From Pontiellaceae bacterium B12219 (GTDB lineage: Bacteria; Verrucomicrobiota; Kiritimatiellia; Kiritimatiellales; Pontiellaceae): DNA of 38,121 nucleotides. The DNA is taken from positions 1 to 38,121 of the forward strand of contig JARNMJ010000043.1 of NCBI GenBank assembly GCA_029432795.1, in the 5' to 3' direction. Every line of letters begins with the position of its first letter. Positions within the stretch are counted from its first letter, which is position 1. A program made the position numbers and the translations under genes. The notes beneath the pieces were generated by a model that had not been told where the DNA came from, made no database searches, and saw nothing but the letters and a program-made list of their open reading frames with translations. Below, one piece after another: positions 4,677 through 24,412 of this stretch.

Positions 4677-4803
4677 GGAGAGGAATGAAAACGTTTGAAG
4701 TCGCAACGCTGGGCGGGGTGGCATTAAGGTGCACCATGGGGTTACACGCCGCACTTGAACCTGTTCCGCCAGAGCCGTGCGTTTTAATTTTAAGGAGAAG
4801 CAA

Positions 4804-6132
4804 ATGAAAATGACCTTCATATACATGTTAACGGCCTGCGTTTTATTCGGTACGGCGATTGAGTCTGCTGCGTTAAAGGTGAACAGCAAGGGGCCGTTGC
4901 TGAACGATCCAGCCCGCGAACAGGAGTTCATGGATTGGGGGCTGGGTATGTTTGTCCACTGGTCCCTGGATTCGCAGCTGGGATCGGTGATCAGCCATTC
5001 CATGGTTGGCGCGTCTGATAACTATCTGGATCGTTTCATCAACGAGCTTCCGAAAACGTTTAATCCCAGACAGTATGATCCGGATGAATGGATGGAAATC
5101 GCCAAGCTGGCCGGCGTGAAATACATGGTGTTCACCACCAAGCATCACAGCGGTTTTTGCATGTGGGACACGAAGACCACCGACTTCAGCATCATGAACA
5201 CGCCGTATGGTAAGGATATCGTCAAGGACTATGTTGAAGCCTGCCGACGCCATGGAATCAAAGTCGGCCTCTACTTTTCCCCGGAAGATTTCCATTTTCA
5301 ACGGCAGAACGGATTTGAAATTCGTCGCGTGGGTCGTACAGATGAGGAAAAGGCCATCATCGGCGACTACAACCGCAAACAGCTCGACGAGCTGTTTAGC
5401 AATTATGGAGAGATCGATGTCATTTTCTTTGACGGCGGCGAAAAGGAAGAGCTCACGCAGTACATTCACAAACTGCAGCCGAAGTGCCTCGTGACCCGCG
5501 GCGAAATGGAAACGCCCGAGCAGAGACTTCCGAAAGAGCCGATGCCCGGTCCATGGGAGTCGTGTTTTACGCTGGGAAATCAATGGCAGTTCAAGCCCAC
5601 CAACGATGATTATAAGAGCGGCGGAAAGCTGATCAATATGCTGATCGAAACACGCGCCAAGGGCGGCAATCTGCTAATTAACATCGGACCCGAACCGTCA
5701 GGTATTATTCCCTTTGAGCAGGAACGCCGTTTCCGCGAGCTGGCGCTCTGGATGTTTATTAACGATGAAGCCATATATGATGTCCGTCCGTGCAAGGTCG
5801 TCGGAGAAGAAGGCATTTACTATGCGCAGTCCAAAGACGGCAAATCGGTGTACGTCTTTCTGACGGAATACACGGATAAGAAAAGATGGAAATATGGTGA
5901 GCGCAAAGAGATTGTCCTCAAGGAGCTGAAGGCCACAAAGGATACCGCGATTTCCGTGCTTGGACAGAACAGCAAAGTGCTTGAGTATCAGAAAAAAGTG
6001 AACCCGGAATCGATCTTTGAACAGACCGATGAAGGCCTCCAGATTTCCGTCATGCGCGCCCAGCGCATTTATAATAATAAAGCCTGGCCGAACACGGTCG
6101 TGGTGAAACTCGATAACGTAAGGTTCAAATGA
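4804..6132 (+). CDS. GH29 alpha-L-fucosidase, secreted
   Basis: The 442-residue protein removes terminal alpha-L-fucose by a retaining mechanism (GH29). Family marks are GMFVHWS near the N-terminus, the substrate-binding stretch KHHSGFCMWDTKTTDFS, NYGEIDVIFFDGG with D210 as the likely nucleophile, and the late motif GGNLLINIGPEPSG. The start is ATG 4804, with AAGGAG at 4792-4797 (spacing 6); the upstream in-frame GTG at 4777 would bury the signal peptide. The N-terminus (MKMTFIYMLTACVLFGTAIESA) looks like a Sec signal. It is the first gene of a three-gene operon and its stop overlaps the next start by ATGA (6129-6132). The acid/base residue cannot be assigned by eye. Confidence 0.9.
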   Translation: MKMTFIYMLTACVLFGTAIESAALKVNSKGPLLNDPAREQEFMDWGLGMFVHWSLDSQLGSVISHSMVGASDNYLDRFINELPKTFNPRQYDPDEWMEIAKLAGVKYMVFTTKHHSGFCMWDTKTTDFSIMNTPYGKDIVKDYVEACRRHGIKVGLYFSPEDFHFQRQNGFEIRRVGRTDEEKAIIGDYNRKQLDELFSNYGEIDVIFFDGGEKEELTQYIHKLQPKCLVTRGEMETPEQRLPKEPMPGPWESCFTLGNQWQFKPTNDDYKSGGKLINMLIETRAKGGNLLINIGPEPSGIIPFEQERRFRELALWMFINDEAIYDVRPCKVVGEEGIYYAQSKDGKSVYVFLTEYTDKKRWKYGERKEIVLKELKATKDTAISVLGQNSKVLEYQKKVNPESIFEQTDEGLQISVMRAQRIYNNKAWPNTVVVKLDNVRFK

Positions 6133-7505
6133 TGACTATGAAACAAATACTATGTGGTGCTTTGGGCGTGTTGCTGTTTGGTTCTGGTTGCGCCTACTTC
6201 GGAAAATCGAAGGTGGTCGATGTGAAGAACTTCGGGGCCAAAGGGGATGGGGCGGCCATGGATACGGTTGCGATCCAGTCGGCGATCGATGCCTGCGAAA
6301 GCGGCGGTACGGTACTGGTTGGTTCGGGAAAATATGTGGTCGGCACATTGAAGCTGAAAAGCAATATGGAACTTCATTTGGCGGAAGGGGCCGAACTGCT
6401 GGGCAGCCTGTCGCTCGATGACTATGCAAGGGATATCCAGGGCGCTATCGAAGGACCGGCATTTGATGAATGTCTCGTTTATGCCGAGAATGCGAATAAT
6501 ATCAAAATTACCGGCCAGGGCGTAATCAATGGCCGCGGACATGAAGAGAATTTCCCCATTGGGCCTCGGGAAGCGTATCTCGACCGTCCGATGCTGCTCC
6601 GCTTTGTGAATTGTAAGAATATCCTTTTCGAGGGGGCAACCTTCAAAAATGCGGCATCGTGGTGTACGCATTTGGTGGATTGCGATGACATTATCATTCG
6701 GAATTTAACCATCGACAGTCATGTGAATCGTAATAATGACGGGATTGATCTGGATGGCTGTAAAAATGTGCTGATCGAAAACTGCAATATTCGTTCCGGT
6801 GATGATTCGATCTGCCCGAAGAGTACGACAACCCGGGTTGTTGAAAATGTGGTGGTGAAAAACTGCCGGGTGGAAAGCAATACCTCGGCGTTTAAGCTGG
6901 GCACTTCGTCGCGCGGCGGCTTCCGGAATATCAAGGTGTCGGACTGCGATTTTTCCAATACCCGAATGGGTGCAATCAAACTGCTGGCGGTTGATGGCGG
7001 ATTCATTGAGGATATCACGATTGATAACATCGTTATGAATGACGTAGAAGGACCGATCTTTATCCGGCTTGCAAATCGGGGCCGGACCTATCACAAACCG
7101 ACGGAACAAATTCAAAGCAAGGATGCTGAGCCGGAAGGCGCTCCGGTGGGTTACGTGAAAAACATTCGTATCAGCAATATCAAGGCGACGGTGACCGGCG
7201 ATGTTTTGAAGCGGCAGGGCATCATGATTTCCGGAATTCCCGGTCATTATATTGAGGATGTGGAGCTTGAAAATGTTGAGATCAGCTTCGCTGGCGGAGG
7301 CACTGCGGAAGATGCAAAACGGGAAGTGCCGGAAGACATCGCCCGTTATCCGGAACAGTTTTTCTTTGGCGTGCTGCCTTCGTGGGGGGCGTATATCCGC
7401 CATGCAAAAGATATTGAATTTAAAAATGTAAAGCTGAGTACGCGTTCGCCGGATCAACGGGAGAAAATTGTTTTGGTTGATGTGAAGGATTTTGATGATG
7501 AATAA
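6129..7505 (+). CDS. GH28-like polygalacturonase-family lipoprotein
   Basis: The 458-residue right-handed beta-helix protein belongs to the GH28 (pectin/rhamnogalacturonan hydrolase) clan. The N-terminus is a lipoprotein signal with lipobox FGSGC, modified Cys at position 21. The mature part begins with the family hallmark VVDVKNFGAKGDG. The catalytic region reads NRNNDGIDLDG (D204), where classical GH28 has NTD, and SGDDSICPKS (D225, D226). The usual GHG histidine motif is replaced by AFKLGTSSRGG, and the RIK motif appears as GAIKL. It therefore looks like a divergent exo-acting enzyme rather than a standard endo-polygalacturonase. It is translationally coupled to the fucosidases on both sides, so it probably acts on the same polymer, cutting an alpha-linked uronic acid or other sugar. 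Activity is inferred. Confidence 0.8.
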   Translation: MMTMKQILCGALGVLLFGSGCAYFGKSKVVDVKNFGAKGDGAAMDTVAIQSAIDACESGGTVLVGSGKYVVGTLKLKSNMELHLAEGAELLGSLSLDDYARDIQGAIEGPAFDECLVYAENANNIKITGQGVINGRGHEENFPIGPREAYLDRPMLLRFVNCKNILFEGATFKNAASWCTHLVDCDDIIIRNLTIDSHVNRNNDGIDLDGCKNVLIENCNIRSGDDSICPKSTTTRVVENVVVKNCRVESNTSAFKLGTSSRGGFRNIKVSDCDFSNTRMGAIKLLAVDGGFIEDITIDNIVMNDVEGPIFIRLANRGRTYHKPTEQIQSKDAEPEGAPVGYVKNIRISNIKATVTGDVLKRQGIMISGIPGHYIEDVELENVEISFAGGGTAEDAKREVPEDIARYPEQFFFGVLPSWGAYIRHAKDIEFKNVKLSTRSPDQREKIVLVDVKDFDDE

Positions 7506-9972
7506 GTATATAGCACTTTTGCTGGGTTTGACTTCTGCTGCAATGGGTTCGGTGGCGGAAGAGGCGGCTTATCGCCGTGGCATGACGATGATTACGCCCG
7601 CTGTTCAGTGGCGTGAGGGGCTGCCTTCCGGCAATGGAAAAATCGGTGCGTTGGTTTATGGGTCGGTAAATGAAGAGCGCGTGCTGTTTAATCACAATGA
7701 GCTCTGGTACGGCGGGGTGATTGACGATGTTCCGGATGTATCGGGCGAACTTGAGGTGGTCAGGGAACTGCTGCTGGAGGGGAAGTATCTTGAAGCAAAT
7801 GGGCACTATACTAAAACGCTCAGGGAAAAGGGATTCAATGCGCGGAATGCGGCCTATCATCCGGCTTTTGATCTGCTGGTGACCAGCGATACAGAACGCA
7901 TGTTCGAAGACTACAGCCGTACGCTTGATTTTGAAACCGGGGAGGTAAACGTCAAATGGAGAGACGGAGAGACCCGTTTTTCAAGACGGTTGTTTGTTTC
8001 CATACCGGATGATGTTTCGGTGATGTCCATTCGATCAGATCGTCCCGGTGCTGTGAGTGGACGGGTTACGCTCGATATCCATGATCTCAGAGATGCCATT
8101 CTGCAGAACGGAGAACGGTTCGATCCGGGGTTTACGTTCCGCACCGTGGTCGAGGATGATTTTGTCGAATTTCATGCGGACGGTTCCGATGGCGGCCAGT
8201 TCGGTGGCGTGGTGCGCGTGGTTGCCGATGGCGGCGAACTCGATGCGGATACAGCATCAATTCATTTTTCCAATGCGGATGAGGTGGTTCTGATCGTTGG
8301 ATTTTTCGCCAATGAAGAGAGCGGGACGGCAGTGCCACGCTTGAAGAACCAACTTGCGGCACTCGATGGCGATTATGAAAAACTCTTCCGTCGGCACCAA
8401 CCGCTTCATCGCGAAAAATTTAATTCGATGGGGTTGAATTTAAACGGAACGAACCAGCGCGATACCCCGAACGAGCTGTTGCTGCTGGACGCCTATCAGA
8501 ATCCGGCGTCTCCCGAATTGATTGAACGGCTTTTTGACTATGGCCGTTATCTGCTGATCTCCAGCAGCCGATCGGGTGGGTATCCGGCGAATCTTCAGGG
8601 GATTTGGAACGGGGACTACCGTCCTCCGTGGAGTTCATTGTACGGGATTAATGAAAACCTGCAGATGACCTACTGGCAAGGGCTTCCCGGAAATATGAAA
8701 GAGTCCATGATGGCCTTCTATGACTATTTCGACAGTCATATGGACGAATTCCGCTATAACGCAAAACAGCTGTGGGGATGTGATGGCATCTATATCCCGC
8801 CCTTTATGTCGCCCGACTCCGGCATCATGCGCCATACGGCGCCGCATGTGGTCTATTGGACGGATGCGGCCGGTTGGCTGGCCTCGTTCTACTATGACTA
8901 CTATCTGTTCACCGGCGATGAAGCGTTTCTGAGAAACAGGGCAATTCCCTTCATGATGGAAGTCGCGGCATTTTACGAAGATTTCATCGTTAAGGATGGG
9001 CAGGGTGAAAATATGTTCCTGCCGTCGCAGTCTCCCGAAAATCAACCGGTTGAAATGGTCGTGACCGATCCGGAAAGCGGCCGGCAAACTAAGATTAAAG
9101 TACAGATCAATTCCACGATTGCCGTTGCCATTGCCAAAGAAAATTTCAGTAACCTGATCAATGCGTGTGAAACACTGGGAATTGAGCAGGCGGGGGTTGA
9201 ACGTTGGAAAAGGATGCTGGCCGACATGCCGGAATATCAGGTTAATGATGACGGGGCATTAAAAGAATGGATGCATCCGGATTTCAAGGATAACTATGAA
9301 CACCGGCATCAGTCGCACCTTTACCCGTTGTTCCCGGGGCAGGAAATTACAGAGGAGACCAATGCGGAGTTGTTTGAAGCCTGTCGGATTGCTATCGAAC
9401 AGCGTTTGGTGATTGGGTTGAAGTCGCAAACCGGTTGGTCGTTGGCCCATATGGCCAACGTCTATGCACGGTTGGGCGATGGCGAAAAGGCTCAGGAAGC
9501 ATTGAATATACTGTCGCGAAGTTGTCTGGGGCAGAACCTGTTCACGTACCATAACGATTGGCGCAATATGGGGGTGACTATGCCGTTCACCTGGGGCAAT
9601 TCGGCTCCATTTCAAATGGATGCCAATTTCGGCATTCCGGCGGCCATTATGGAAATGCTTTGCGGTTCAACGTCCGATATGCTGCGAATTCTGCCGGCCT
9701 TGCCGTCTGAATGGTCTACGGGTGCGTTTAATGACATGCTGACGCGCACAGGCGTCCGGACCTCCGCCAGCTGGGATATAGAGCAGAAAGAGATCGAACT
9801 CTCCCTCTATGCCGAGCGCGATACCGTTTTTGATCTGAAATTTCCGGCGGAAATTTCGGAGCTTAACTGCAATCGGCCTGAAGCGCTGAGTGCTTCGGAA
9901 TATGGTACACGGTATCGCACCGTGAAACTCGCAAAGGGCGATCAAGTCCAATTGCAGATCAAACTCAGGTAG
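7495..9972 (+). CDS. GH95 alpha-L-fucosidase (or alpha-L-galactosidase), secreted
   Basis: The 825-residue protein shows the GH95 pattern throughout. Near the N-terminus it has PAVQWREGLPSGNGKIGALVYG and NHNELWYGG. GINENLQMTYWQG follows, with Asn386 and Asn388 matching the paired Asn of GH95 enzymes. Then come EHRHQSHLYPLFPG and APFQMDANFGIPAA, with D709 at the site of the base-activating Asp. GH95 inverts the anomeric centre and usually releases alpha-1,2-fucose; some members cut alpha-L-galactose. A Sec signal is present (MMNKYIALLLGLTSAAMGSVA). The start at ATG 7495 has AAGGA at 7485-7489 and overlaps the GH28-like gene by 11 bases, ending the operon. ATG 7498 is equally possible. Confidence 0.9.
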   Translation: MMNKYIALLLGLTSAAMGSVAEEAAYRRGMTMITPAVQWREGLPSGNGKIGALVYGSVNEERVLFNHNELWYGGVIDDVPDVSGELEVVRELLLEGKYLEANGHYTKTLREKGFNARNAAYHPAFDLLVTSDTERMFEDYSRTLDFETGEVNVKWRDGETRFSRRLFVSIPDDVSVMSIRSDRPGAVSGRVTLDIHDLRDAILQNGERFDPGFTFRTVVEDDFVEFHADGSDGGQFGGVVRVVADGGELDADTASIHFSNADEVVLIVGFFANEESGTAVPRLKNQLAALDGDYEKLFRRHQPLHREKFNSMGLNLNGTNQRDTPNELLLLDAYQNPASPELIERLFDYGRYLLISSSRSGGYPANLQGIWNGDYRPPWSSLYGINENLQMTYWQGLPGNMKESMMAFYDYFDSHMDEFRYNAKQLWGCDGIYIPPFMSPDSGIMRHTAPHVVYWTDAAGWLASFYYDYYLFTGDEAFLRNRAIPFMMEVAAFYEDFIVKDGQGENMFLPSQSPENQPVEMVVTDPESGRQTKIKVQINSTIAVAIAKENFSNLINACETLGIEQAGVERWKRMLADMPEYQVNDDGALKEWMHPDFKDNYEHRHQSHLYPLFPGQEITEETNAELFEACRIAIEQRLVIGLKSQTGWSLAHMANVYARLGDGEKAQEALNILSRSCLGQNLFTYHNDWRNMGVTMPFTWGNSAPFQMDANFGIPAAIMEMLCGSTSDMLRILPALPSEWSTGAFNDMLTRTGVRTSASWDIEQKEIELSLYAERDTVFDLKFPAEISELNCNRPEALSASEYGTRYRTVKLAKGDQVQLQIKLR

Positions 9973-10010
9973 TTTGTTGCTGGATGGCGGTTGGAGCAAC
10001 CTTTCTCGTC

Positions 10011-10026
10011 TCCTGCAAACGCAGGA
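10011..10026 (+). repeat. Hairpin element copy B (TCCTGC-AAAC-GCAGGA)
   Basis: This is the cleanest short copy: TCCTGC (10011-10016), loop AAAC, GCAGGA (10021-10026), followed by TATGCG. It starts 38 bases after the GH95 stop and ends 65 bases before ATG 10092. No T-run follows. It could be a leader hairpin, an operator or a mobile palindrome. Confidence 0.5.
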
Positions 10027-10040
10027 TATGCGGGCGGGTT

Positions 10041-10059
10041 AAATCAGATAGTCTGATTT
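10041..10059 (+). promoter_or_regulatory. Perfect inverted repeat upstream of the second GH29 gene
   Basis: AAATCAGATAGTCTGATTT has 8-base arms and a TAG centre. It ends 32 bases before ATG 10092. The stem is AT-rich and only one further T follows the arm, so a protein-binding operator is more likely than a terminator. The binding protein is unknown. Confidence 0.4.
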
Positions 10060-10091
10060 TTGAATCTGGAAATTGAACGACAGGACCCCCT

Positions 10092-11516
10092 ATGAAAAAG
10101 TTTTTATACTCCTTGCCCGTTATTACGTTGCTGGCCTCCATGGGCATGCAGAACAGCTGTGCGGCGAATGAAAAATCATCAATTGCGCAGGAGCGGATTG
10201 CAGATGCCTCCCGGCTGGATTGGTGGCTGGATGATAAGTTCGGCATGTTTATTCACTGGGGACCGTCCAGTATTGCCGGCGTGGAAATCAGCTGGGCGCG
10301 CGAAACCCATCCGTTCGATCATCCGGGCAAACTCGAAAAAATACCGGATGCGGAATACGACGCGCTCTATGAAAACTTTAATCCCGTGGATTTCGATGCC
10401 GATGCGCTGGTGTTGACCGCCAAAGAAGCCGGTATGAAATATATCGTATTCACCGCGAAGCATCATGATGGCTTTTGCAACTGGCCGACCGAACTCACCG
10501 ACTACAATATTTCGAACACGCCCTATCAGCGCGATATCTGCAAAGAGCTGGCGGATGCGGTTCACCGGCATGGCCTGAAGCTGGGCTGGTACTATTCAAC
10601 CCGCGACTGGACGCATCCCGACTATCTCGTGGGTGATAACGGGAAATACAACGATTTCTATCATGGCCAGATTCGCGAGCTGCTGACGAATTACGGAGAG
10701 GTCGATGTGCTGTGGTTCGATCATGTGGCAGGCAGATGGGATCAGTATCGATTTCAGGAGCTGTTTGATATGATCTATGAGCTGCAGCCCGATATTGTCA
10801 TTAACAATCGGGGTGCCCGGTTTATTTTCAGGAACAAAGCCGGAACGCCCAGCCCGGAGCTTGCTGAACTGACCCAAGGCGACTACGAAACGCCGGAAGG
10901 AAAGATCGGGGTTTTCCGGAAAGATGCGCCGTGGGAAACCTGCATGCCGATGTCGCACGGGCCCGATGGCGGCGGATGGTCGTACCGTCCGGATGCAACT
11001 ACTCAGAGTTTTGAGGAATGCACAACGATGCTGGCGGCCTGTGTTACCGGTTGCGGCAATATGCTGTTGAATGTCGGGCCGATGTCCAGCGGCGAGCTGC
11101 GCCCGGAAGAACTGGAAAACCTGAAGCAGTTTAAACCCTGGATCGAAACCTACGGTGAAAGTATTTACGGAACCGAAGGCGGCCCCTACATCAGCGGTCA
11201 ATGGGGCGGATCCTGCACCAAAGACAATGTGATCTATCTGCACATTTTCCAATGGTCGGAAAATGAACTCACGCTTCCGGCTCTGCCGCGCGAGATCATT
11301 GACTGCGAAGAACTCGGCGGCGAACCGGTTGACTTTAAGCAAACCGCCGATGGCCTTGTGCTTAGCATCGACGGCGGGAAAGAACGCAGCCTGCACAGTG
11401 TGGTTAAACTGACGCTTGCGGAAGGCCCGGAGCTCGAGCTGATCGAAGTGGAAGGCGGTACTCCGAAAAAACAGCACGACACGCTCGTGAATCCAATGGC
11501 TGGAAAAAAGAAATAG
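10092..11516 (+). CDS. GH29 alpha-L-fucosidase, secreted (second copy)
   Basis: The 474-residue protein has a Sec signal (MKKFLYSLPVITLLASMGMQNSCAA) and the full GH29 core. Visible motifs are KFGMFIHWGPSS, FTAKHHDGFCNWPTELTDYN, WYYSTRDWTHPDY and NYGEVDVLWFDHV, with D210 as the likely nucleophile, then GNMLLNVGPMSSGEL. A small C-terminal beta domain follows. It differs clearly from the GH29 at 4804 in loops and in the nucleophile motif (WFDHV versus FFDGG), so the two probably prefer different fucose linkages or sulfation patterns. The ribosome site is weak (ACAGGA about 6 bases upstream). It is separated from the operon by 119 bases that hold two inverted repeats, so it may be regulated on its own. 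Confidence 0.9.
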   Translation: MKKFLYSLPVITLLASMGMQNSCAANEKSSIAQERIADASRLDWWLDDKFGMFIHWGPSSIAGVEISWARETHPFDHPGKLEKIPDAEYDALYENFNPVDFDADALVLTAKEAGMKYIVFTAKHHDGFCNWPTELTDYNISNTPYQRDICKELADAVHRHGLKLGWYYSTRDWTHPDYLVGDNGKYNDFYHGQIRELLTNYGEVDVLWFDHVAGRWDQYRFQELFDMIYELQPDIVINNRGARFIFRNKAGTPSPELAELTQGDYETPEGKIGVFRKDAPWETCMPMSHGPDGGGWSYRPDATTQSFEECTTMLAACVTGCGNMLLNVGPMSSGELRPEELENLKQFKPWIETYGESIYGTEGGPYISGQWGGSCTKDNVIYLHIFQWSENELTLPALPREIIDCEELGGEPVDFKQTADGLVLSIDGGKERSLHSVVKLTLAEGPELELIEVEGGTPKKQHDTLVNPMAGKKK

Positions 11517-11529
11517 CGCGCCTGCAGTT

Positions 11530-11546
11530 TTTCCAATCCTTGGAAA
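11530..11546 (+). repeat. Palindromic repeat TTTCCAA-TCC-TTGGAAA
   Basis: Seven-base arms surround a three-base centre. The copy lies between the GH29 stop (11516) and the alginate-lyase-family start (11614). Further copies are at 14522, 16245, 17582, 24159, 24242 and 32508. Confidence 0.55.
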
Positions 11547-11567
11547 CGCGGCTTTTGTTACATCGGA

Positions 11568-11608
11568 TTCCTCGCTATAACCCGTCTTTACTTTTGACGA
11601 GCGAGGAA
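11568..11608 (+). promoter_or_regulatory. Possible hairpin masking the ribosome-binding site
   Basis: TTCCTCGCT (11568-11576) pairs perfectly with AGCGAGGAA (11600-11608) across a 23-base loop. The right arm contains GAGGA, the likely ribosome site for ATG 11614. If formed in the mRNA the hairpin would hide that site, which suggests translational control. This is a structural reading only. Confidence 0.3.
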
Positions 11609-11613
11609 AATCC

Positions 11614-12745
11614 ATGCAGCTGAAACCACCGACCATTCTGTTTTCAATCCTTTGTCTGTTTTTGGTTTCGCATGATGCGAAGAGTGCGGAAACGAAGAAA
11701 AGAGAATTTGTTCATCCGGGCATTCTGCACACCAAAGCCGACCTGCTGCATATGCGAAAGCAGGTTGCTGAAGGCAAACAACCCTGGCTGGATGGCTTTG
11801 AGGTGCTGAAAGCGCATCCTCAATCATCGAGTGCGTATGTGGTAAAGGGCGGATTCCCGGAAACCGGCCGTAAGCCCGGTGTTCGATCTTCTGAACACGA
11901 AAGCGATGCCAATGCGGCCTATCAGAATGCCATGATGTGGGTCATTACGGGCGACAAGGCCCACGCGGATAAGGCGATTGAAATTATAAATGCCTGGTCC
12001 GGGAAGCTGAAAAAGATCAGTGGGAAAGACGCCATTTTATCGGCGGGAATCTCCGGCGTGAAATTGGTCTCGGCGGCAGAAGTGCTGCGGTATACGAATT
12101 CGGGTTGGTCGCAAATGGATATACTTCGGGCGGAAAAAATGTTCACGGAGGTCTATTATCCGGTCTGCGAAAATATGGCCGATTTTGCGAACGGAAACTG
12201 GGCGCTCGCGGCATTGCAAACGGTGATGGCGATTGCGGTTTTTACCGATGATCAGGCCATGTTTGATCGGGCGGTTGATTGGTTTTACAACGGGCCCGAT
12301 AACGCGCGGCTCACCCATTATGTGATTAATGAAGCCGGGCAGTGTCAGGAGAGCGGGCGGGATCAGCAGCATACCATGCTCGGGCTGGGCTACCTGTCCA
12401 TCGTTGCGGAAATCGGTTGGGATCAGGGGGTTGATTTGTACAACGCGGAAAATAATCGGATTCTGGCCGGTTTCGAATATACCGCATCCCTATAATCTCG
12501 GAAATGAAGTGCCCTTTGAGGAAACGACAGACACGACCGGAAAGTACCATCATACCTCAATTTCATCGAAAGGGCGCGGCGACTTCAGCCGCCGTCCGAT
12601 TTATGAAATGGTGTACAATCATTATAAAAATATCAAAGGCCTCGATTGTCCCTTCACGGAACAGGTCGTTCTTCAGACGCGCCCCGAAGGGCCCGGTTTT
12701 AAAGGCGATCATTTTGGATTTGGAACCGTTCTCTTTTGGCAGTAA
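11614..12745 (+). pseudogene. Alginate-lyase-family (PF05426) secreted lyase, frameshifted
   Basis: The first frame (11614-12495, 293 residues) starts with a Sec signal and continues as a PF05426-type toroid lyase: FVHPGILHTKADL, NGNWALAALQTVMAIAVF, then GQCQESGRDQQHTMLGLGYLS, a stretch characteristic of the family. It ends early at ...GFEYTASL. The expected continuation YNLGNEVPFEETT...GTVLFWQ lies one base over, in the frame ending at 12745. Removing one C from the CCC run at 12488-12490 restores a 376-residue protein of ordinary family length. The break is either a true mutation or an error in a short homopolymer. The family cleaves uronic-acid polymers by beta-elimination. Its stop lies 10 bases from the stop of the convergent minus-strand gene. 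Confidence 0.75.
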
Positions 12746-12755
12746 GTGCTTTTTC

Positions 12756-15308
12756 TTATTCCGCGGAAAGCACCCATCCGGAGGTTTTGGTTCCGTCCAG
12801 CGGCAGATTGTAGGTGAGGCTGTAGGTCTCCGAAACCGGATCGTAGATCGTCTGCCAGAAATCGTTTCCATGTACGGATTGATCAAGCTTGATCCGATCA
12901 TTTCCTTTGACCTGATAGAGTGCATACTCCGCTGACTCCAACCCTTCGATGCGAACGGGGACCATGCCGACTCCTCCGGTTATTTTCATTTGAATGTCGT
13001 CCGGACGGGTGGCTTCGAGGATCAGCGGATAGGTGTGCTTCACGGTTGCACCGGCGGTCTGAACCTCCAGATCATTTCCGATGGCTTCGCGATAGACGCT
13101 TTTCCAGGATCTGGAAAACTTCTTCAGATGGTTGCGGAAGGTTTCATTCGGGCCGTAGTAGTCGTCGGCCACACGGGGCAGTGTGATCCATTCCACCTCG
13201 AAGGTGATGCGATCGCCCGCGTTGAACTCCTTCACACCTTCGGGCGGGGTCAGGATCATATCCAGATTGATCCGGCCTTCTGATTCCACGCGAAAAACGG
13301 GAAATGAGATGGTCGGGTTGGTATGGGTTTTTCCGTCAATAACGGCTTCGTAGGATCGAATGATCAGTGCACGACTTCCCGTTCCCCAATCTCTTCCGTC
13401 TATTTTGGTTGCTCCGGGAAATGCGATCCACCATGGAGCGGCACCGGTGAGTTCCGTTTCCTTTTGGTAGACTTCGCCGGGCTTTAAACCACTGGGCACG
13501 TTGTGCTCTTTAATAAGGCCGTTCGCATTTCCATAGGCAATTTCCGGCGTGACCAGGTGAGACGTTTTCCCCATTTTGAAAAGCCAGCCGTTTTCGGCGG
13601 AAACGGATTGGGTGAAGGTGTATTCAAAGGTCTGGAAGGTGCGGGCATAATCATCGGTACGCAGCGTCTGAACGTTGGCTTTAAAATCAATTTCACGTTC
13701 GCTTCCGTAATAGCCGTCGTAGTGCACTTCGGTTAAACAAGGTCCCTGGGAGAGATAGGCCGTTTTAAGTTCAGTGAAATAGAGTTTCTGATTGCGGTCA
13801 TCCTGCAGGTTGAGCCAGTCGCCGCCCCAGCCGCCATCGGTCCAGCTCCATTTTTTACCTTCGAGGCCGTTGCGGGTCATGAGCATGCGGACATCGGTGA
13901 CGATGTTGTCGACACAGCTTGTGTCCATATCAAAGCAGATGGTTTCGCCCCAGCAGCCGATAGCCAGCTGATCCCAGCGTCCGTTGTTTCCGCGCGCTCC
14001 GTCGGAACCGTAACCCACCAGCGAAAGCTGGGAATGACTGGCGGAGGGGAGGGTGCCGTAGAATCCGTAAACAATGCGGAGTTTGTACTTCGAAACACCC
14101 TGCGTTGCGGGAATCGTGGTGTAGGCGCGCAGATAAGAACCCAGCCCTTCGTGATGCCAGTTTTTACTGAGCTGCACCGGGATACCGGTAGGCGTTCCGT
14201 CTTCGTGGCAGAGGATCGGGCAGAGTCCGGTGATATTGGCCGGACCGGAGAGGTCCAGCTGAAACGGAACATAGGTGCTGTTATCTTCATTGTTAATGAC
14301 GATGTCAAATTCGTCATAGTCGCGGATGTCGGTATAGCCCGATTTCCAGCTGCGCTTCAGTTCCCGCTTGCCGATCTTTACAGCGTAGCAGGCATAGGCT
14401 TCGTCGAAGTCAGCAGGAAACGACTGATTCTGCGGAGCGGTGAACTGGATCGAAACTGCATCTTTTTTCAGGGGCAGATCCTTTAAATTGCAGTTGAGGG
14501 TCAGCTGTTTTTTTTCATCGGGTTTCCAATCATTGGAAACGGTGGTTTCCGTTTCCCAGTCGTTCAGCCGGATGGAGAGTTTCGTATTTTTCCACGAGGC
14601 GGACGTCGGAGTCAGTTCGAGCGTAAGCGTGATCGTATCCGGCCAGATGACCAGGTCCAGGATGCCGTCGCATTCCAGCTCCCGGCCGGAAGCATCTTTG
14701 AAAATAAGTCCCATCAAATCGAAATGCTGAACCAATTGTCCGGACTCCCACAGCCGGGCGTTCTGCAGCCGTTTCTGGTTTTTGCTCACACCGGCTTCGC
14801 AGGCAACGGCACGGTAGGGGGTTCCATCAACGACGGCTTCGATAATAAGATTTGCCGGTTCCAGCCGGTTGATTCTCTGGTTGCCGGTTTTAAGGGCTTC
14901 CATATATGAACTGTCATCGTTCAGCAGACTGAAGCGGGTCTTGGAAAAATCTGAAAGGTCGAAGGTTAATCCATAGTAGCCGGTTTCAAAACAGAGGATT
15001 TCAGGGGAGTCGTCATTTTTATTTTTACGCCACCCATTCAGCCAATAAGCATAGGAAAAATTTTTCCGATTCAACGGGAGTAAGGTTGGATCGGCCTGAG
15101 CGGATTCTTTTTCAGATTGTTCGGCAATCGGTTTTGGTGTTTCAGGAATGTCTTCAGGCTTCTTTTGAGATTCGGGAACCGGCTTTGGTGCCGGGGCAGG
15201 AGCCGCAGGTGCTGAAGTCTGTTTTTTTTCAGCATCGCAACCCACGAGCATAAACACGGAGGTAACGAGTAGAAGCGAAATGACATATAAGTGCAGTGTT
15301 TTTTTCAT
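12756..15308 (-). CDS. Large lipoprotein of an unrecognised family, paralogue of the gene at 15552
   Basis: The 850-residue protein starts with a lipoprotein signal; lipobox LVGC places the modified Cys at 24, followed by Asp. A low-complexity Ala/Pro/Lys/Glu linker runs to about residue 72 and acts as a tether. The rest is similar over its whole length to the protein encoded at 15552-17972. Shared landmarks include RLWESGQLVQHFDLMGLIF, GIPVQLSKNWHHEG (about 376), SHSQLSLVGYG (about 425), the WGETICFDM stretch and LTEVHYDGYYG (about 524). Many conserved Trp, His, Asp and Glu residues suggest a carbohydrate-active protein, but I cannot name a family. Position among lyases, sulfatases and fucosidases supports a role in the same polymer. 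The DNA carries two palindromes (13100-13118 and 14522-14540). Confidence 0.7.
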   Translation of the reverse strand: MKKTLHLYVISLLLVTSVFMLVGCDAEKKQTSAPAAPAPAPKPVPESQKKPEDIPETPKPIAEQSEKESAQADPTLLPLNRKNFSYAYWLNGWRKNKNDDSPEILCFETGYYGLTFDLSDFSKTRFSLLNDDSSYMEALKTGNQRINRLEPANLIIEAVVDGTPYRAVACEAGVSKNQKRLQNARLWESGQLVQHFDLMGLIFKDASGRELECDGILDLVIWPDTITLTLELTPTSASWKNTKLSIRLNDWETETTVSNDWKPDEKKQLTLNCNLKDLPLKKDAVSIQFTAPQNQSFPADFDEAYACYAVKIGKRELKRSWKSGYTDIRDYDEFDIVINNEDNSTYVPFQLDLSGPANITGLCPILCHEDGTPTGIPVQLSKNWHHEGLGSYLRAYTTIPATQGVSKYKLRIVYGFYGTLPSASHSQLSLVGYGSDGARGNNGRWDQLAIGCWGETICFDMDTSCVDNIVTDVRMLMTRNGLEGKKWSWTDGGWGGDWLNLQDDRNQKLYFTELKTAYLSQGPCLTEVHYDGYYGSEREIDFKANVQTLRTDDYARTFQTFEYTFTQSVSAENGWLFKMGKTSHLVTPEIAYGNANGLIKEHNVPSGLKPGEVYQKETELTGAAPWWIAFPGATKIDGRDWGTGSRALIIRSYEAVIDGKTHTNPTISFPVFRVESEGRINLDMILTPPEGVKEFNAGDRITFEVEWITLPRVADDYYGPNETFRNHLKKFSRSWKSVYREAIGNDLEVQTAGATVKHTYPLILEATRPDDIQMKITGGVGMVPVRIEGLESAEYALYQVKGNDRIKLDQSVHGNDFWQTIYDPVSETYSLTYNLPLDGTKTSGWVLSAE
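13100..13118 (-). repeat. Variant palindrome TTTTCCAG-GAT-CTGGAAAA in coding sequence
   Basis: Eight-base arms surround GAT. It encodes the SRSWK part of the lipoprotein. The paralogue at 15552 carries its palindrome (17582-17596) at the matching protein position (SNPWK). Confidence 0.35.
14522..14540 (-). repeat. Palindromic repeat GTTTCCAAT-C-ATTGGAAAC in coding sequence
   Basis: This is a perfect inverted repeat with 9-base arms. It is identical base for base to the intergenic copy at 32508-32526. In the lipoprotein it encodes VSNDWK. Confidence 0.55.
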
Positions 15309-15551
15309 GTAGTGATCCAGGTTAGTGAAATCAGGTAGAAACCGATTTGATTCATTTGGAGAGCGTTTATACCGGATGTGCCCGTCTATGAGTATCCTCT
15401 AAATAAGGGAGGCGCGATGGCAGGCAGTAAGAAGCGTTAGCTGGCTCGGATCAGCAGCAATGCGTTTTAGGGGGTCGTTCATATACGGGATGGTATGTGT
15501 TTTTCTCTCTGATATATTTTCAGAATTAATAGCAGTCTCTCGGGAGAAAAA

Positions 15552-17972
15552 ATGAGTTTGATGAGTGGTAGAACACAAATGGTTGTGATGATCCGAAGAA
15601 TCTTCGCTGTGGCTGTTTGCGGCATGGCTGCAGTTGCTGACGCGAGCGAAGTCGACCGGCACTATTCCTTCATCTATTTTGAACAAGGTTATCCGACCCG
15701 CCTGCTCAAGTATCGGCGTTCGGAAGCGATGGCCGATAAAACGGCTCGGGCCAACCCCGATGTGGTGGTGCAGACCGGATTTTATACGTTACGGCTGGAT
15801 TGTGACACGATGCAACTCTCTGGATTTGATGCCGTGGAGGGCTCGGACTATCTGACCGCTTTAAATCAGGATGTCACCGTGTTCAGCCCGGCAAAGCTGG
15901 TGATACGGATCGAGCAGAATGGGGTTGTCTATACGTGTGCGTCCGGCATTGTTCAGGATAAGGCCGACCAGCATGTCCGCTTGATCGAGAGCGGGCAGTA
16001 TGTTCAGCGCTTCGACCACATCGGGTTGGTGTTCATTGATAAATTCGGGAAAGAATTGGATGGCCGTGGGCGGCTGGAGATCACAGCCTGGGCGGATCAT
16101 GTGGCATTTCAACTCGATATGTCCGGCGTCGAAGGCGTTTCAAAATCAGGGATTCAGATCGTCTCCCCGGCGGGCAAGGTTCATCGTGCCGGTGGAGAGA
16201 GCGATATGGCCACGCTGGTGCTGGTTCCGCATGAGGATGAAGTCTTCCAACCCTTGGAAACATCGGTCTATATCAAGGACGCTATCGATTTGAGGAATAA
16301 GAAGAAACTCGATGTGGTGTTTGACGAAGACGAACAGGCACTTCGTTTTGATCTGCCAATGGAGCGCGTTCAGTTCCCGAAGGATTGGGGGCGTGTGGAT
16401 GAATATGTGATTGAGGTCAAAAACCCGACGGGTGAAGCCGTATCGCTCCCGTTGATTTTCAATGAAATTAAACCGCAGGCGATTACCGGAACCAGTATGC
16501 TGCTGTGCGAAGATCCGGATGGCCGCCCAAGCGGAATCCCGGTTCAGATTTCTAAAAACTGGCACAATGATAAAGAGCATCGGGTGAAACACGACGGACC
16601 CTGGCTTCGCGGATATACCATGGTTCCATTGAAGGGCGGGGAGACCCGGCGGTTAAGATTGCGGGTGGTGACCGGATTCTGGGGCAACGTTCCGGCAGTT
16701 TCCTATTCCCATCTTAGTGTGATCGGTTATGGCGGAAACTGGAAGTGGGATGAAAGTGCGCTCGGTGCCTGGGGCGAATCGATGTGTTACGATCCTTCGC
16801 AGCATCTGGGCGCTGCATTTATCACCGATGTCCGTCCGTCGTTTACGCCGAGTAAACAAGGCAAGCCGTATAACTGGACGGAAAATGTGGGCGGAGGAGA
16901 TTTTCTGGTTTATTTCGATAAGGACAATACCTATCGCTGGGTTAAAAAACTGAAAACCGCGTTTTACTGGACCGGACCCAATGTGACTGAAGTGCATTAT
17001 TCGGGAATCACCGATGACGATGCGATCCGATTCAACTATCGCATCCGGTCTGTGCGTACCTTCGATTATCATCGCCGTTTCCATTCCTATTCCTATGAAT
17101 TTCTGAAGGATGTTGAAACGCCGCAACGCCTCGTCTTTCATCAGTTAGCGGCCGATTATTATAACACCGTGACACTCGATGATTATTATGTGGGTGATGC
17201 AACGGGAATGAAAAAGGCGTTTCATCATGAACGGGGCCGCAGTGGATACGCGTCGGAAAAGATTCCTTTCAATGATTCCTGGCTGTTGTCTGACGATACC
17301 GGTTGTAATGACCGCAATGCCGCGATCGCCTATGGCCGACGTGCGCTGCTCAATATGAGTTCAACGCTGAACGGCGAACCGTTTCCGGTATATATTCACC
17401 CATTCAGTATGGGCCGCAGCGGAGATCGCGTGAATTTTGACCTGAGTGCAGATTCTGTCAGCCGGTCCTACAAAGCGGGCGATATCGTAGAGGGTGAGCT
17501 TGAGTTTATTCTTCCGGCAAAAACGGCGGCCGATTACTGGGGCGACGATCAGGAGTTTGCGGGGCGTTTAAAGGCCGCTGCTTCCAATCCTTGGAAAATG
17601 GCGGCCGATGAATTTACTCATAACATTCTGATGGAACCAACGGTGAGTGTGGGGCAAATGCTGAACACGTATCCGCTCGAAATCGAGGTTTTGGAAAAAA
17701 GCGAGATTCTTACTGACTTCACGATCCAAAGCGGGGGCATTGGGCACGTGCCGATCATTCTACGCAACGTGCCTGCAGGCAGTGCGCTTAAAGTGGAACG
17801 GTTTATTGACGGAAAATGGGCTGACCTCGAAGCGGTGGATCTGGAGCAGAACAGTTATTATCAAGGCATCCGCACTGCCGATGGGACGATGGACTGTCTT
17901 TTCAATATCAACCGCCCCTCTTCCAACCTGAATGAGAGCTGGCGAATACGGATTATTCAATCAGCGCAGTGA
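15552..17972 (+). CDS. Large secreted protein of an unrecognised family, paralogue of the gene at 12756
   Basis: The 806-residue protein has a Sec signal (MVVMIRRIFAVAVCGMAAVADAS) and no lipobox or linker. It follows the minus-strand lipoprotein along its whole length. Shared landmarks are RLIESGQYVQRFDHIGLVF (about 143), GIPVQISKNWHN (about 326), YSHLSVIGYG (about 385), WGESMCYDP and NVTEVHYSGI (about 476); the C-terminal domains also match (TYPLEIEV, GGIGHVPIILRNV). The start at ATG 15552 has GGGAGA at 15542-15547. The two genes are divergent with 243 bases between their starts, so they may share regulation. One is membrane-tethered and the other free, which suggests related activities in two places. 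Function is unknown; a carbohydrate-active role is inferred from context. Confidence 0.75.
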   Translation: MSLMSGRTQMVVMIRRIFAVAVCGMAAVADASEVDRHYSFIYFEQGYPTRLLKYRRSEAMADKTARANPDVVVQTGFYTLRLDCDTMQLSGFDAVEGSDYLTALNQDVTVFSPAKLVIRIEQNGVVYTCASGIVQDKADQHVRLIESGQYVQRFDHIGLVFIDKFGKELDGRGRLEITAWADHVAFQLDMSGVEGVSKSGIQIVSPAGKVHRAGGESDMATLVLVPHEDEVFQPLETSVYIKDAIDLRNKKKLDVVFDEDEQALRFDLPMERVQFPKDWGRVDEYVIEVKNPTGEAVSLPLIFNEIKPQAITGTSMLLCEDPDGRPSGIPVQISKNWHNDKEHRVKHDGPWLRGYTMVPLKGGETRRLRLRVVTGFWGNVPAVSYSHLSVIGYGGNWKWDESALGAWGESMCYDPSQHLGAAFITDVRPSFTPSKQGKPYNWTENVGGGDFLVYFDKDNTYRWVKKLKTAFYWTGPNVTEVHYSGITDDDAIRFNYRIRSVRTFDYHRRFHSYSYEFLKDVETPQRLVFHQLAADYYNTVTLDDYYVGDATGMKKAFHHERGRSGYASEKIPFNDSWLLSDDTGCNDRNAAIAYGRRALLNMSSTLNGEPFPVYIHPFSMGRSGDRVNFDLSADSVSRSYKAGDIVEGELEFILPAKTAADYWGDDQEFAGRLKAAASNPWKMAADEFTHNILMEPTVSVGQMLNTYPLEIEVLEKSEILTDFTIQSGGIGHVPIILRNVPAGSALKVERFIDGKWADLEAVDLEQNSYYQGIRTADGTMDCLFNINRPSSNLNESWRIRIIQSAQ
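16245..16259 (+). repeat. Palindromic repeat TTCCAA-CCC-TTGGAA in coding sequence
   Basis: Six-base arms surround CCC. Here the reading frame gives FQPLE, unlike the other coding copies, which read SNxW. Confidence 0.4.
17582..17596 (+). repeat. Palindromic repeat TTCCAA-TCC-TTGGAA in coding sequence
   Basis: Six-base arms surround TCC. It encodes SNPWK near the C-terminus of the 806-residue protein. Confidence 0.4.
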
Positions 17973-18051: not shown

Positions 18052-19932
18052 ATGAATTCAAGATGGATGGCAAGTGTTGCACTGTTGTGCGTTGTACTGA
18101 ATGGATATGCTGCAGATGAGCGACCTGAAAAACCGAATGTGATTTTGCTGCTGACCGATGATCTCGGCTGGCAGGATGTGAAGTGTTACGACATTGATGA
18201 GCCCTCGCCGATGGAAACGCCGAATATTGACGCGCTGGCGGAAAAAGGAGTGATGTTCTGGCAGGGCTATTCTCCCGCTCCAACCTGCGCGCCGAGCCGT
18301 TGCGCGATCATGAGCGGGAATCATCCCGCACGTGCCCAGAAAACACACGTCATCGGCGGCGGACCGCCGACGCCCTACAACAAAACAGCCCATCGCATGA
18401 TGGCTCCGTGGTATAGCGGGCGCATGCCCGAAAATGAGCAGACCCTTGCGCTTACGTTAAAGCAGAACGGGTATGTAACCGGGCATTGCGGAAAATGGCA
18501 TATGGCGATCAATCACAATGCGTTTCCTCAGCCGAAAGATCAGGGGTTCGATTGGTCGCAGCATAATCTCGGAATCACCCAGCGCATGCGCCCGAATCGT
18601 CTGACGGGCTTCTCAACAGATAAACCGGACGATCCGTATCAACTTGATGAAAACGGATTTTCGACGCATCAGAACAGCGAGGATGCATTGACGTTTGTTC
18701 GGGAAAACAAGGACAAGCCGTTTTTCCTGTATTACGCCACCTGGTTGGTACATTCCCCGATCCAAACCCGCAATGAACGACTGCTCGATAAATACTGTAA
18801 GAAGCTCGGCGTGGAGCGGCCCGAAAATCCGAACGAATGGAAGGGCGAGGGGCAGAACAACCCGTTTTACTGTGCCATGGTGGAAGAACTGGATTACTAC
18901 GTGGGCAAACTTTTCCACTATCTGGAAACGACCGAAGATCCCCGCTGGCCGGGCCACATGTTGAGCGAAAACACCTATATCATATTCACTTCGGACAACG
19001 GTGGAATGGAGCAGCATCCCGGTGAAATAATCACCGATAATGCCCCGTTGGCCCGTGGAAAAATATCGGCCATGGAAGGCGGAACCCGCGTGCCGCTCAT
19101 CATCGTCGGTCCCGAAATTGATGCCGGTGTACAGTCGGATGTGATGGTTAATGGTCTCGATTTTTATCCAACCATTCTTTCCTGGACGGGAACCCCCCGG
19201 CCGGAAGGTAAACATCTGGACGGGCTCGATCTTTCCACGCTGCTGGCAAAGGATCCAACCAATCCGACGTTGGTCAAAGAAGGCGACGGTTCGGTGCGCG
19301 ATACGATGGTTTGGCATTTCCCGAACAGCATTGCGTTGGAAAGTACGATTCGTATCGGTGACTACAAACTGGTGCGGAACTATGATCATATTGGAAATCC
19401 GAACACCCCCGAACTTGAGTTGTTCCGTCTGTATGAAACCAGGAACGGGAAGCAGAAACGCGGAGATATTGAAGAAGCAAATAATCTGGCCGACGCCATG
19501 CCTGAAAAGACTCAGGAGATGAATCGGAAGCTCTCCGAGATACTGACGGAAATGAAGGCCAGTTATCCGTACTACAATCCGGCGTGTAAATTTAATCTGC
19601 CGGGTAAGGATTCGGTGTGTGAAGTTGTTTCCAATGTTCGGAAAGGCAGTACCGTTCAATTCCGTTATAAGGAAAACGGTGCAAAAGTAATTCGTGCTCA
19701 GCTGCTCTATACACTCAACGGCGGGCATCGCTATGAAGAGTGGTTTCGTCTTCCGGCTGAACTGATGGACGGAAATAAAGTACAGGCTCAACTCCCGGAA
19801 GGAACAACGCATTATGTCATCAATCTGATCGACGAAAACAACTTTCTCGTCAGCTACCCCGAAATGGTGGATATGATTGGATCGCGGAAAGAAGCGTATT
19901 CAGTTAAAGCGCTGTCGGTGAATGCCGATTGA
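18052..19932 (+). CDS. S1-family sulfatase, secreted
   Basis: The 626-residue protein is a formylglycine-type sulfatase that removes sulfate esters. A Sec signal ends near GYA-AD (20/21). The metal site begins with LLTDDLGW (D36, D37). The activation motif is CAPSR with C79 as the residue to be converted to formylglycine, followed by MSGNHPAR. HCGKWHM and FTSDNGG (D315, N316) complete the core. The Cys-type motif needs an anSME radical-SAM maturase, which is not in this window. After the sulfatase fold there is an extra domain of about 120 residues (from about 505) that looks like an Ig/fibronectin-type beta sandwich. The ribosome site is GAGG a few bases upstream. It is the first gene of the second half of the island. 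The exact sulfated sugar cannot be read. Confidence 0.9.
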   Translation: MNSRWMASVALLCVVLNGYAADERPEKPNVILLLTDDLGWQDVKCYDIDEPSPMETPNIDALAEKGVMFWQGYSPAPTCAPSRCAIMSGNHPARAQKTHVIGGGPPTPYNKTAHRMMAPWYSGRMPENEQTLALTLKQNGYVTGHCGKWHMAINHNAFPQPKDQGFDWSQHNLGITQRMRPNRLTGFSTDKPDDPYQLDENGFSTHQNSEDALTFVRENKDKPFFLYYATWLVHSPIQTRNERLLDKYCKKLGVERPENPNEWKGEGQNNPFYCAMVEELDYYVGKLFHYLETTEDPRWPGHMLSENTYIIFTSDNGGMEQHPGEIITDNAPLARGKISAMEGGTRVPLIIVGPEIDAGVQSDVMVNGLDFYPTILSWTGTPRPEGKHLDGLDLSTLLAKDPTNPTLVKEGDGSVRDTMVWHFPNSIALESTIRIGDYKLVRNYDHIGNPNTPELELFRLYETRNGKQKRGDIEEANNLADAMPEKTQEMNRKLSEILTEMKASYPYYNPACKFNLPGKDSVCEVVSNVRKGSTVQFRYKENGAKVIRAQLLYTLNGGHRYEEWFRLPAELMDGNKVQAQLPEGTTHYVINLIDENNFLVSYPEMVDMIGSRKEAYSVKALSVNAD

Positions 19933-20247
19933 TCACCTTTCCGAGGTATAGAAGAAACTCCAATAATTCCGGCAAAGGTTGTGCGGTTATTCGAAGGCGT
20001 AACACGTTGATATATAGATGTATATTCCAACGTCTGGAAGATTCGGGTGTCGAAGTTCAGTAACAGGTTATGGGTTAACTTGGTAATCCCTCCATGTCTT
20101 GAATCTTTTCTGCGTTGGCGCACTGTTAAATCATATGTGGGAAAAAGTCAGGGTCTCCATATCGGGTAGACTGAGCCGGCTTTAAAACCCCTCGTGTTTC
20201 CCTGTTGCTACTAACGAGCGCGTTGAATTTAAAAATTGGAGTTCAAA
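19933..20247. other. Intergenic region of 315 bases without a gene
   Basis: No coding frame with a ribosome site is visible. It contains a degenerate TTCCA-ACGTC-TGGAA repeat (20025-20039) and a weak inverted repeat CTCGT (20191-20195) / ACGAG (20214-20218) close to the next start. A promoter for the beta-helix gene is expected here, but I cannot point to convincing -35 and -10 boxes. Confidence 0.4.
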
Positions 20248-23200
20248 ATGAGAAGAGTGGATAAACGAGCAGCGGCTGGTTTGGTGTGGCTTGTGGTCTG
20301 CGGTGTTGCCGGTGCTGAAACCTGGGATGGCGGCGGAGCGGATAATGAATATTCAACTGCGTTGAACTGGAATAATGATGTGATTCCCACAAACAGCACC
20401 GGGGACATCAACGGAGCTTATACGGTCGAACGTTTTGCGGATATTAACGTTCTTCGGACGTTTGTGCAGGGCGGTGCAATACTGAATGTTACGGGTGGAA
20501 CGCAAAACGACAGTGAGTCCGGCAATACGATCCGAAATTTCATAGGCTTTGGCAGCAAGGGCACGGTCAATCAATCGGGCGGCAGCTACAATATTGGCCA
20601 TATCCTCATCGTGGGCGGAAGCAACAGTGCAGGTGATGGCACATACAATCTGAGCGGTGGCGACCTCGCCGTTTCCCGGGGCGGTAATTCGTTCATGGGA
20701 GTCAGCGGAGGATCCTCGATTGAAATCGGTGTTGGTGGCGGCACCGGGCTGTTCAACATTTCGGGTGGCTCGTTAACCACTCGAATCGGTGTGGGTATTG
20801 GTGCAACAGGAACATTTCGCGTGCAGGGCAGCGGTGCCGGCATCATTGGCATCGGGTCGAACGGTTCGCTGGACGGCGATTGGAATCAGAGTGCAGGCGG
20901 CACGCTCAGCGTGGGAATCGATGCGGGCGGCGTTACCAAGATTCTGATCGATGATTATCAAGACGATGGCGGTGCCTATGCGACCTTTGAGTCCGGTTCC
21001 CTGCTGGATGTCGATTTTTACTCCACAGGTTCCGGCAGCGGCACCTGGACGGTGCTGGAAGTGGAAGGAACAAATATTGTAGATAACGGACTGGCTTTTG
21101 CCCCCGGTGTGGATACAAGTGTCTGGTCGTTTGCCATTGATAATTCGGGACCCAACGGGTTATTGACGGTGACCTCGGTGGGTGAGTCCCAGAATCCAAC
21201 ACATGTTACGGTCAACAGCATTGCACAGTTGCAGCAGTATGCCGATGCTTCCAACATGACCGTTACCATGACGCCCGGAACCTATTGGCTCGAAGGACCG
21301 TCGATTCGTCCGGCGCCCTATGCAAATTATGCCGTTTTTCTGGACCTGAGCGGCGCAAACTCCACGTTTGATTTCACGGGGGTGCATATTAAAGTCGATA
21401 CGCAGGAACTGGATGGATACGGCAGAGCCTATGGCCACGACAGCGGGGTGCAGGTGTTGCAGATCAGCGGCTATGGTGTGGAGGTTGACGGGCTAACGCT
21501 CACGATGGAAAAAGTTTCTTACGATGGAGTCGATCAGTATGGCAACCCCCGGGAATATTCGGCGGATTGGTCCTCGCAGCTGGTGCGGGTGATTGCATCG
21601 AACACAACGATTAAAAACTGCAATTTTACGACCGGTGGCTCGTATCCATACGGCTATGGCGATGCCTTCGGAAAAGGAAATCGCCCCAATACCGATGGCG
21701 TAACCGATGCCGCCTGGATTTCCCACAGCAAACAGAGCGGTTTTCTGATCACTGAAGGGGCCTCCAATGTAACGGTGGACAATGTGGTGTTGAACATGCG
21801 CAGTTTCGGGCATGGTTTTTTTATGCAGCAGGGCGCAGGTAATATTCTGTTTAAGGATTGCAAGGCGCTGGGCGACACGATGGCGGACAGTGATGATATT
21901 ATTGCGCATCCTGAATATCAGGCGTGGGGCTTCGCGACCTATAAGGAGCCGATTCCCGCCGATATTCGAATTTCGAAACACGAAGATGCTTTCCGTACGT
22001 ATGGAAATTCCGACTCGGCAAACAACGGATATCCGGCAGATATTTACAACGTGACGATCACCAATTGTGTTGCCGAGCGTATGCGGAATGCAACACCGGT
22101 TCATGCAACGGGCTACTGCCGGATCTATGACACCGAAGTCTACGATTGCGAAATGGGCCTGACGGCTAACAGTCTGGGAGAATCCACCATACTGAACTGC
22201 AAAGGAAATGCGCGCAACGGACCGTTGATCTATTTCCAGTATTCGGTCGTGCAACCCGCGATCTATGAAGTAGAACTAACGGGGGACACGCCGGGCCATG
22301 GTGTGAAGCCGATTGCATTGATCAGTGGTGCAGGAAACCGGATCACGCTTACCAGTTCGGCTGCACCGGGCGTCTATTCCAAAGAGGCCTATTTGAATGC
22401 ATCCCAGAAATGGCGCGAATGGCGCCATCGTCCTGCCTACGATATCGACGAGCGGTATGCCGGAAACTATTCCGACTACACGACAGGAAATTTTATTACC
22501 AACCTGACTGATCAGATTCTGGTGTTTGGAGAAAATGCCACCGACAACATCGGCTGCGTCTCCACGGGCGGGGTAATCAATAAAGGAACCGGCAATGAAT
22601 ATACGGGTGAAACGCTGGTGTCCGGCGAGATCGTAGTTGAGGACACGTGGTCCTATCCGCCGAACTCAACGAATGTCAGCTGGGCGCAGTATGATTCCGG
22701 TGGAAATCTGATTTTGCCAACACCGCCCTATATTGTGTTCGATGGAATACAGGTTGTGGATGATGCGCTTTCGCTCGGCGGTTCTCCCGTTGGAGACGGC
22801 GGAACCACGGTGAGCAACGGCACGCTGGAAATTGCTCCGGGTTTTGCGCTTCACGGTGAAGAGGTGGTGCTCTTCGGTTCTGGAACAACGGGGCAGGGGG
22901 CGCTGTATTCTGACGGAAGTGTAAACAACCAGACCCGTCTGAACTCAAGCAGCGGTTCCATCACGCTTGCGGGCGATACATCGATTGGTGTTGGTGTTGC
23001 CGGCAATCAGCTGTTGGTGGGACCGATTGACGGAACAGGGAATCTGACAAAAGTCGGCGCAGGTCAGTTGGTCATGGAAGGCGGAGCCAACTCGTTCAGC
23101 GGATCGTTGATCATTGCGGAAGGCGGGATCGTCGCGCGGGCGAACAAGGTAAACAATGATTTGGTCATTGCTGCCGGTGCAGGCCTTTCGCAAAATGCAA

Positions 23201-24288: not shown

Positions 24289-24412
24289 TCGGTATGAATG
24301 GATGATGAACGCAGTGAGTTAACTGGGAAACTCACAAAGGCGGATGAAACAGGTGCATTCTAAATTCTTCGGTTTACCCTGTGGGGTAGTATGTCCTTAT
24401 GGGGAGAATCTT

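Follow-up and report, generated by a model that had tools for sequence, protein, structure and literature searches.

The question raised by this locus is what is done by two large secreted proteins that are encoded divergently among fucosidase, lyase-like and sulfatase genes, and whether they are enzymes. The locus lies in Pontiellaceae bacterium B12219 (assembly GCA_029432795.1, contig JARNMJ010000043.1), a marine bacterium that degrades the sugars of seaweeds, and the whole stretch of DNA that was analysed, 38,121 nt, is called the window. The two genes, named A and B here, and the parts of their products are as follows.

12756..15308, minus strand: A, lipoprotein paralogue of 850 residues (open reading frame; coding sequence including the stop; homologues up to 75% identity)
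15237..15308, minus strand: A signal peptide and lipobox LVGC, residues 1-24, the lipobox being residues 21-24 (sequence)
15072..15236, minus strand: A Pro/Ala-rich linker, residues 25-79 (sequence)
14058..15071, minus strand: A N-terminal beta domains, residues 80-417, including KNWH (AlphaFold model)
13023..14057, minus strand: A beta-supersandwich (galactose-mutarotase-like) domain, about residues 418-762 (VIA-align Z 13-16)
12759..13022, minus strand: A C-terminal beta region, about residues 763-850 (AlphaFold model)
15552..17972, plus strand: B, soluble secreted paralogue of 806 residues (open reading frame; coding sequence including the stop; homologues up to 70% identity)
15552..15644, plus strand: B signal peptide region, residues 1-31, without a lipobox (sequence)

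A and B are divergently transcribed with 243 bp between them, and scans for promoters and terminators gave results at or near the shuffled background. Pairwise alignment of the two proteins gave 29.6% identity over 709 columns with an E value of about 1e-73, and a search of the genome with A as the query gave 2e-73. Since a similarity of this strength is not due to chance, A and B are, on alignment, full-length paralogues. This confirms the preliminary description, which had reported two paralogous proteins of 850 and 806 residues, and its claim that A is lipid-anchored with a Pro/Ala linker while B is soluble agrees with the lipobox in A and with the signal peptide of B, which has none. The description of A and B as a pair was right in that the paralogues are real but too narrow, because a whole-genome search found five copies of the family in the Pontiella-like source genome (4.75 Mb, 273 contigs) and there are dozens of homologues in other genomes.

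These homologues are spread over the phyla Kiritimatiellota, Verrucomicrobiota, and Planctomycetota and include proteins from the cultured Pontiella sulfatireligans, Kiritimatiellae, Opitutia, Puniceicoccaceae, Rhodopirellula, and Phycisphaerae. In four samples that overlap, the family profile matched 22 of 289, 30 of 387, 8 of 392, and 25 of 346 genomes, and one genome (G027) gave no match in the profile search. The distribution is thus patchy, like that of accessory polysaccharide genes. The phylogenetic tree has two distinct and well-supported clades, that of A with 27 rows from three phyla and that of B with 11 rows, and, therefore, A and B are old paralogues and not the product of a recent tandem duplication.

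The fold was analysed on an AlphaFold model of A built with 71 sequences (pLDDT 94.8, pTM 0.95), which replaced an earlier model of B built with 26 sequences that was of moderate confidence (pLDDT 75.8) and in which the most conserved stretch was poorly modelled. By DSSP the A model consists of beta structure apart from a few short helices, two of them of any length and near the end, and no alpha/alpha barrel was found in it. VIA-align places residues 418-762 as a predicted galactose-mutarotase-like supersandwich, with the C-domains of GH38 matching at a Z of about 14, and galactose mutarotases are also among the fold matches. Because the Z scores are spread over many families with rmsd values of 3.5-5 Å, these matches mean a shared fold and not membership in any one of the families. 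The structure-prediction check that had been suggested at the outset gave, at the level of the model, a fold that is found in glycoside hydrolases and lyases. This fold is often a non-catalytic domain, as in GH38, GH36, PL8, and LacZ. A Foldseek search of viral proteins returned mainly tail proteins, whose TM-scores of 0.2 or less are not meaningful. The only real domain found inside family members is a LamG_3 insert, present in 13 of 50 members at about A residue 235, and the matches of nine members to the NCBIfam model 'TafC' probably stem from this insert.

Four motifs had been singled out as conserved and likely to be functional, namely, KNWH, SxLSxxGYG, WGE, and TEVHY. All four are present in both A and B, and across the family KNWH and WGE are well kept but TEVHY is not. 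Invariant acidic residues do exist, but the best candidates for function differ from the four listed motifs: E455, D472, R474, and D553 of A are unchanged in 69 of the 69 members that cover these sites. The candidate positions in the two proteins are given below.

14154..14165, minus strand: A KNWH, residues 382-385 (K382 in 67/70, N383 in 67/70, H385 in 65/70)
13944..13946, minus strand: A E455, invariant in 69/69
13887..13895, minus strand: A D472-V-R474, D and R invariant in 69/69
13641..13652, minus strand: A D553-Y-A-R556, D in 69/69 and R in 66/69 (K in 3)
16554..16565, plus strand: B KNWH, residues 335-338 (sequence)
16776..16778, plus strand: B E409, equivalent to A E455 (alignment, sequence)
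16827..16835, plus strand: B D426-V-R428 (alignment, sequence)
17064..17075, plus strand: B D505-Y-H-R508 (alignment, sequence)

Proteins of a remote superfamily (L141, L142, L144, and L145), which have about 950-1100 residues and match no Pfam family, aligned with the A/B profile in hhalign over 605 columns with a probability of 99.9, an E value of 2.3e-33, and 16% identity. The pattern K-N, E, D-x-R, D-x-x-R is retained in these proteins, whereas H385 and the region of Y717 are not. Invariance within the family together with retention at 16% identity is the pattern expected of a catalytic or ligand-binding centre and, from the sequences, K382/N383, E455, D472-x-R474, and D553-xx-R556 (A numbering) are the best candidate functional residues, which we infer to meet in one pocket. 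Since the remote superfamily keeps the acidic and the basic residues and not Tyr717 or His385, we lean towards a hydrolase rather than a lyase. One of the remote proteins is encoded beside an alginate-lyase-family gene and close to a GH78 rhamnosidase.

The partner of the family is a sulfatase, and it is listed here with the neighbouring genes that make up the context.

18052..19932, plus strand: S1 sulfatase with the active-site motif CAPSR, 79 bp after B on the same strand
4777..12495, plus strand: GH29, GH28, GH95, GH29, and PF05426 alginate-lyase-like genes (Pfam)

Together these genes bear out the earlier placement of A and B within a carbohydrate-degradation cluster. Adjacency to a generic sulfatase is weak evidence in genomes that have hundreds of sulfatases, and the specific subfamily of the 18052-19932 gene was therefore tested instead. 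In four genomes of the genus Pontiella (G000, G001, G005, and G016) a fusion protein of ~1730 residues (L044, L046, L050, and L052) has a B homologue as its C-terminal half and an S1 sulfatase of this same subfamily (52-53% identity) as its N-terminal half; in the window neither A nor B carries an S1 sulfatase domain and the sulfatase is a separate gene. At a cut-off of E≤1e-150, G028, G029, G292, and G186 each have one copy of the partner sulfatase, and its distance to a family gene is between 15 bp and 2 kb in every case; a rough estimate of the probability of such a placement at random for all four is about 1e-9, which is optimistic given that polysaccharide genes cluster. The partner sulfatase gene directly adjoins the A orthologue, in divergent orientation, in two loci (L028 and L038), and the window has the same arrangement but with B inserted between them. 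A sulfatase also adjoins a family gene in Opitutia (L033) and in Phycisphaerae (L030 and L042). The solved structure closest to the partner sulfatase is that of an S1_16 kappa-carrageenan sulfatase.

Around 40 family loci there are 39 sulfatases against 13.3 expected (Poisson p about 9e-9) and 16 GH29 genes against 2.3 expected (Poisson p about 3e-9), where the expected counts are from genome-wide density and the 40 loci are not all independent. A sulfatase within 8 kb is lacking at about half of these loci and a fucosidase at most of them, and the family is therefore not tied to one substrate. Other family or remote-group members adjoin GH106/GH78 rhamnosidase, GH116, GH97, and PF05426 lyase-like genes, and others are fused to an AXE1/DLH-type esterase or to an esterase and an alginate-lyase-like domain. 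This suggests that the substrates are different sulfated or acidic deoxyhexose-rich glycans in each lineage, and fucoidan-like in Pontiella. P. sulfatireligans F21 grows on four fucoidans (PMC7356697), and it carries an A-type gene (L029). Fucoidan does not support growth of P. agarivorans (PMC10880615).

Several other proteins in and around these loci deserve mention. The 441-residue protein encoded at 256-1578 (plus strand) of the window matches nothing in Pfam or NCBIfam and nothing convincingly in the PDB, and it has homologues of 56-73% identity in three other A/B loci (L045, where it is adjacent, L052, and L053); it is a second unnamed family that travels with the A/B family. At 32561-35169 (minus strand) there is a histidine kinase, possibly with an F5/8-type-C sensor, and a LuxR-type response regulator; since homologues are found close to family genes in L034, L046, L051, and L052, it is probably a local sugar-sensing regulator. 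The window also encodes a 1350-residue PATR/beta-strand-repeat protein at 20236-24288 (plus strand) and, after it, at 24344-27256, a beta-helix protein that has CBM6 and LamG_3 domains. Among the fusions, a 1738-residue protein (L098:5590-10803, plus strand) combines an A/B-family domain with an AXE1/DLH-type esterase and a PF05426 lyase-like domain, and a 2897-residue protein (L049:8973-17663, minus strand) contains autotransporter-type PATR repeats, an A/B-family domain, and an AXE1-type esterase.

Taking these results together, we propose, with a probability of about 0.6, that A and B are secreted carbohydrate-active enzymes of an unnamed family that act with the S1 sulfatase on sulfated deoxyhexose-rich glycans. 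In this scheme the lipid anchor would keep A at a membrane, and B would be released. The invariant residues would surround a single active site, where two of the acids would be the acid and the base and the basic residues would bind the negatively charged group of a sulfated or uronic-acid sugar. The partner sulfatase would strip the sulfate and the A/B enzyme would cut the neighbouring glycosidic bond of a sulfated polymer rich in fucose or other deoxyhexoses, which for the Pontiella members would be of the fucoidan type.

The alternative that survives best is that A and B are non-catalytic glycan-binding or scaffold proteins that bind a sulfated polymer through their supersandwich and beta domains and bring the sulfatase, fucosidases, and esterases to it, in which case the invariant residues would bind a ligand or a metal. 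The family is fused to varied enzymes (a sulfatase, an esterase, and an esterase with a lyase-like domain) as a targeting module would be, and the frequent non-catalytic use of supersandwich domains is in keeping with this. We nevertheless consider it unlikely because A and B are very large for a binding module, many family members stand alone, LamG modules have been added to the A/B domain as they are to a catalytic core, and three acids and an arginine are unchanged in 69/69 members and retained at 16% identity.

If A and B are enzymes, they could still belong to a CAZy glycoside hydrolase or polysaccharide lyase family that is already defined and that has neither a Pfam or NCBIfam model nor a sequence-related solved structure. 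Several recent CAZy families have no Pfam models, and the searches of Pfam, NCBIfam, and PDB sequences with A, B, and family profiles, which gave no match for the core, are compatible with this. The chance hits in these searches, namely, EF-Tu, a TonB linker, and an antibody light chain, were discarded. The initial statement that the proteins match no known family holds in these databases. That even a 71-sequence profile found nothing among all PDB sequences, and that no published description of the family was found in a literature search, argue against an existing family, and we think this explanation quite improbable. Some other carbohydrate-modifying activity, such as that of an epimerase, an esterase, or a mutarotase, after which the fold is named, is very unlikely: galactose mutarotases are among the fold matches and some family proteins have esterase domains, but the mutarotases match no better than many other supersandwich proteins and a large secreted protein that works outside the cell, beside depolymerising enzymes, does not fit such a role.

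A bolder and more tentative form of the proposal, to which we give somewhat less than even odds, is that A and B are the first members of a new family, of glycoside hydrolases or polysaccharide lyases, with a free-standing catalytic beta-supersandwich that has one sulfatase subfamily as its close partner, either beside it or in the same chain. The preliminary suggestion of a new hydrolase, lyase, or binding family is partly supported, by the lack of a recognised family in Pfam, NCBIfam, or the PDB and by the secretion, the gene context, the fold, and the invariant acids. If the founder proposal is true, desulfation and chain cleavage of fucoidan-type polymers would be carried out by one unit. 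A family that spans three phyla, is joined in some members to a sulfatase and to esterases, and has few invariant residues is a testable candidate for a step that is missing from the turnover of a long-lived marine store of carbon, and the A/B enzymes may be a tool for making defined fucoidan oligosaccharides.

The best structural match of the A supersandwich is the beta-sandwich of the PL26 exo-rhamnogalacturonan lyase (5xqg; Z 16.0, 3.8 Å, 253 residues). PL26 has a C-terminal alpha/alpha barrel that is absent from the A model, and homology in sequence was rejected because the hhalign probability was 1.9% and A, B, and 50 members had no PcRGLX match (PF21345 and its partners) in Pfam. GH186 OpgD matches at Z 14-15 over about 260 residues in VIA-align, and OpgG matches in Foldseek with an E value of 4e-6. 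Sequence homology to GH186/MdoG (PF04349) was likewise rejected, with no Pfam match and an hhalign probability of 0.1%. The substrate of GH186 is beta-1,2-glucan, its proteins have about 500 residues whereas A and B are larger, and its catalytic residues in E. coli OpgD are D300, R359, and D388. GH186 (OpgD/OpgG, the MdoG family) is a glycoside hydrolase with a supersandwich-type fold (PMC10514313). The GH174 endo-1,3-fucanase (8jd7) matches at Z 13.3, 4.7 Å, and 264 residues, in a fold class common to many families; its catalytic residues are D119, E120, and E218, and the 71-sequence profile had no sequence match to GH174 (8jd7 and 9k1g among the PDB chains). GH174 is a sulfated-fucan enzyme, which is in line with the gene context of A and B. 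As for the fusions, no description of a sulfatase joined to an A/B-family domain was found in the literature. The sulfatase fusions known from Pontiella strains combine an S1 sulfatase with a GH10, GH32, or GH29 domain (PMC6388578). They and the sulfatase-B fusions are alike in having an S1 sulfatase and a second domain in one chain, and they differ in that the second domain is a GH10, GH32, or GH29 domain in the former and belongs to the unnamed A/B family in the latter.
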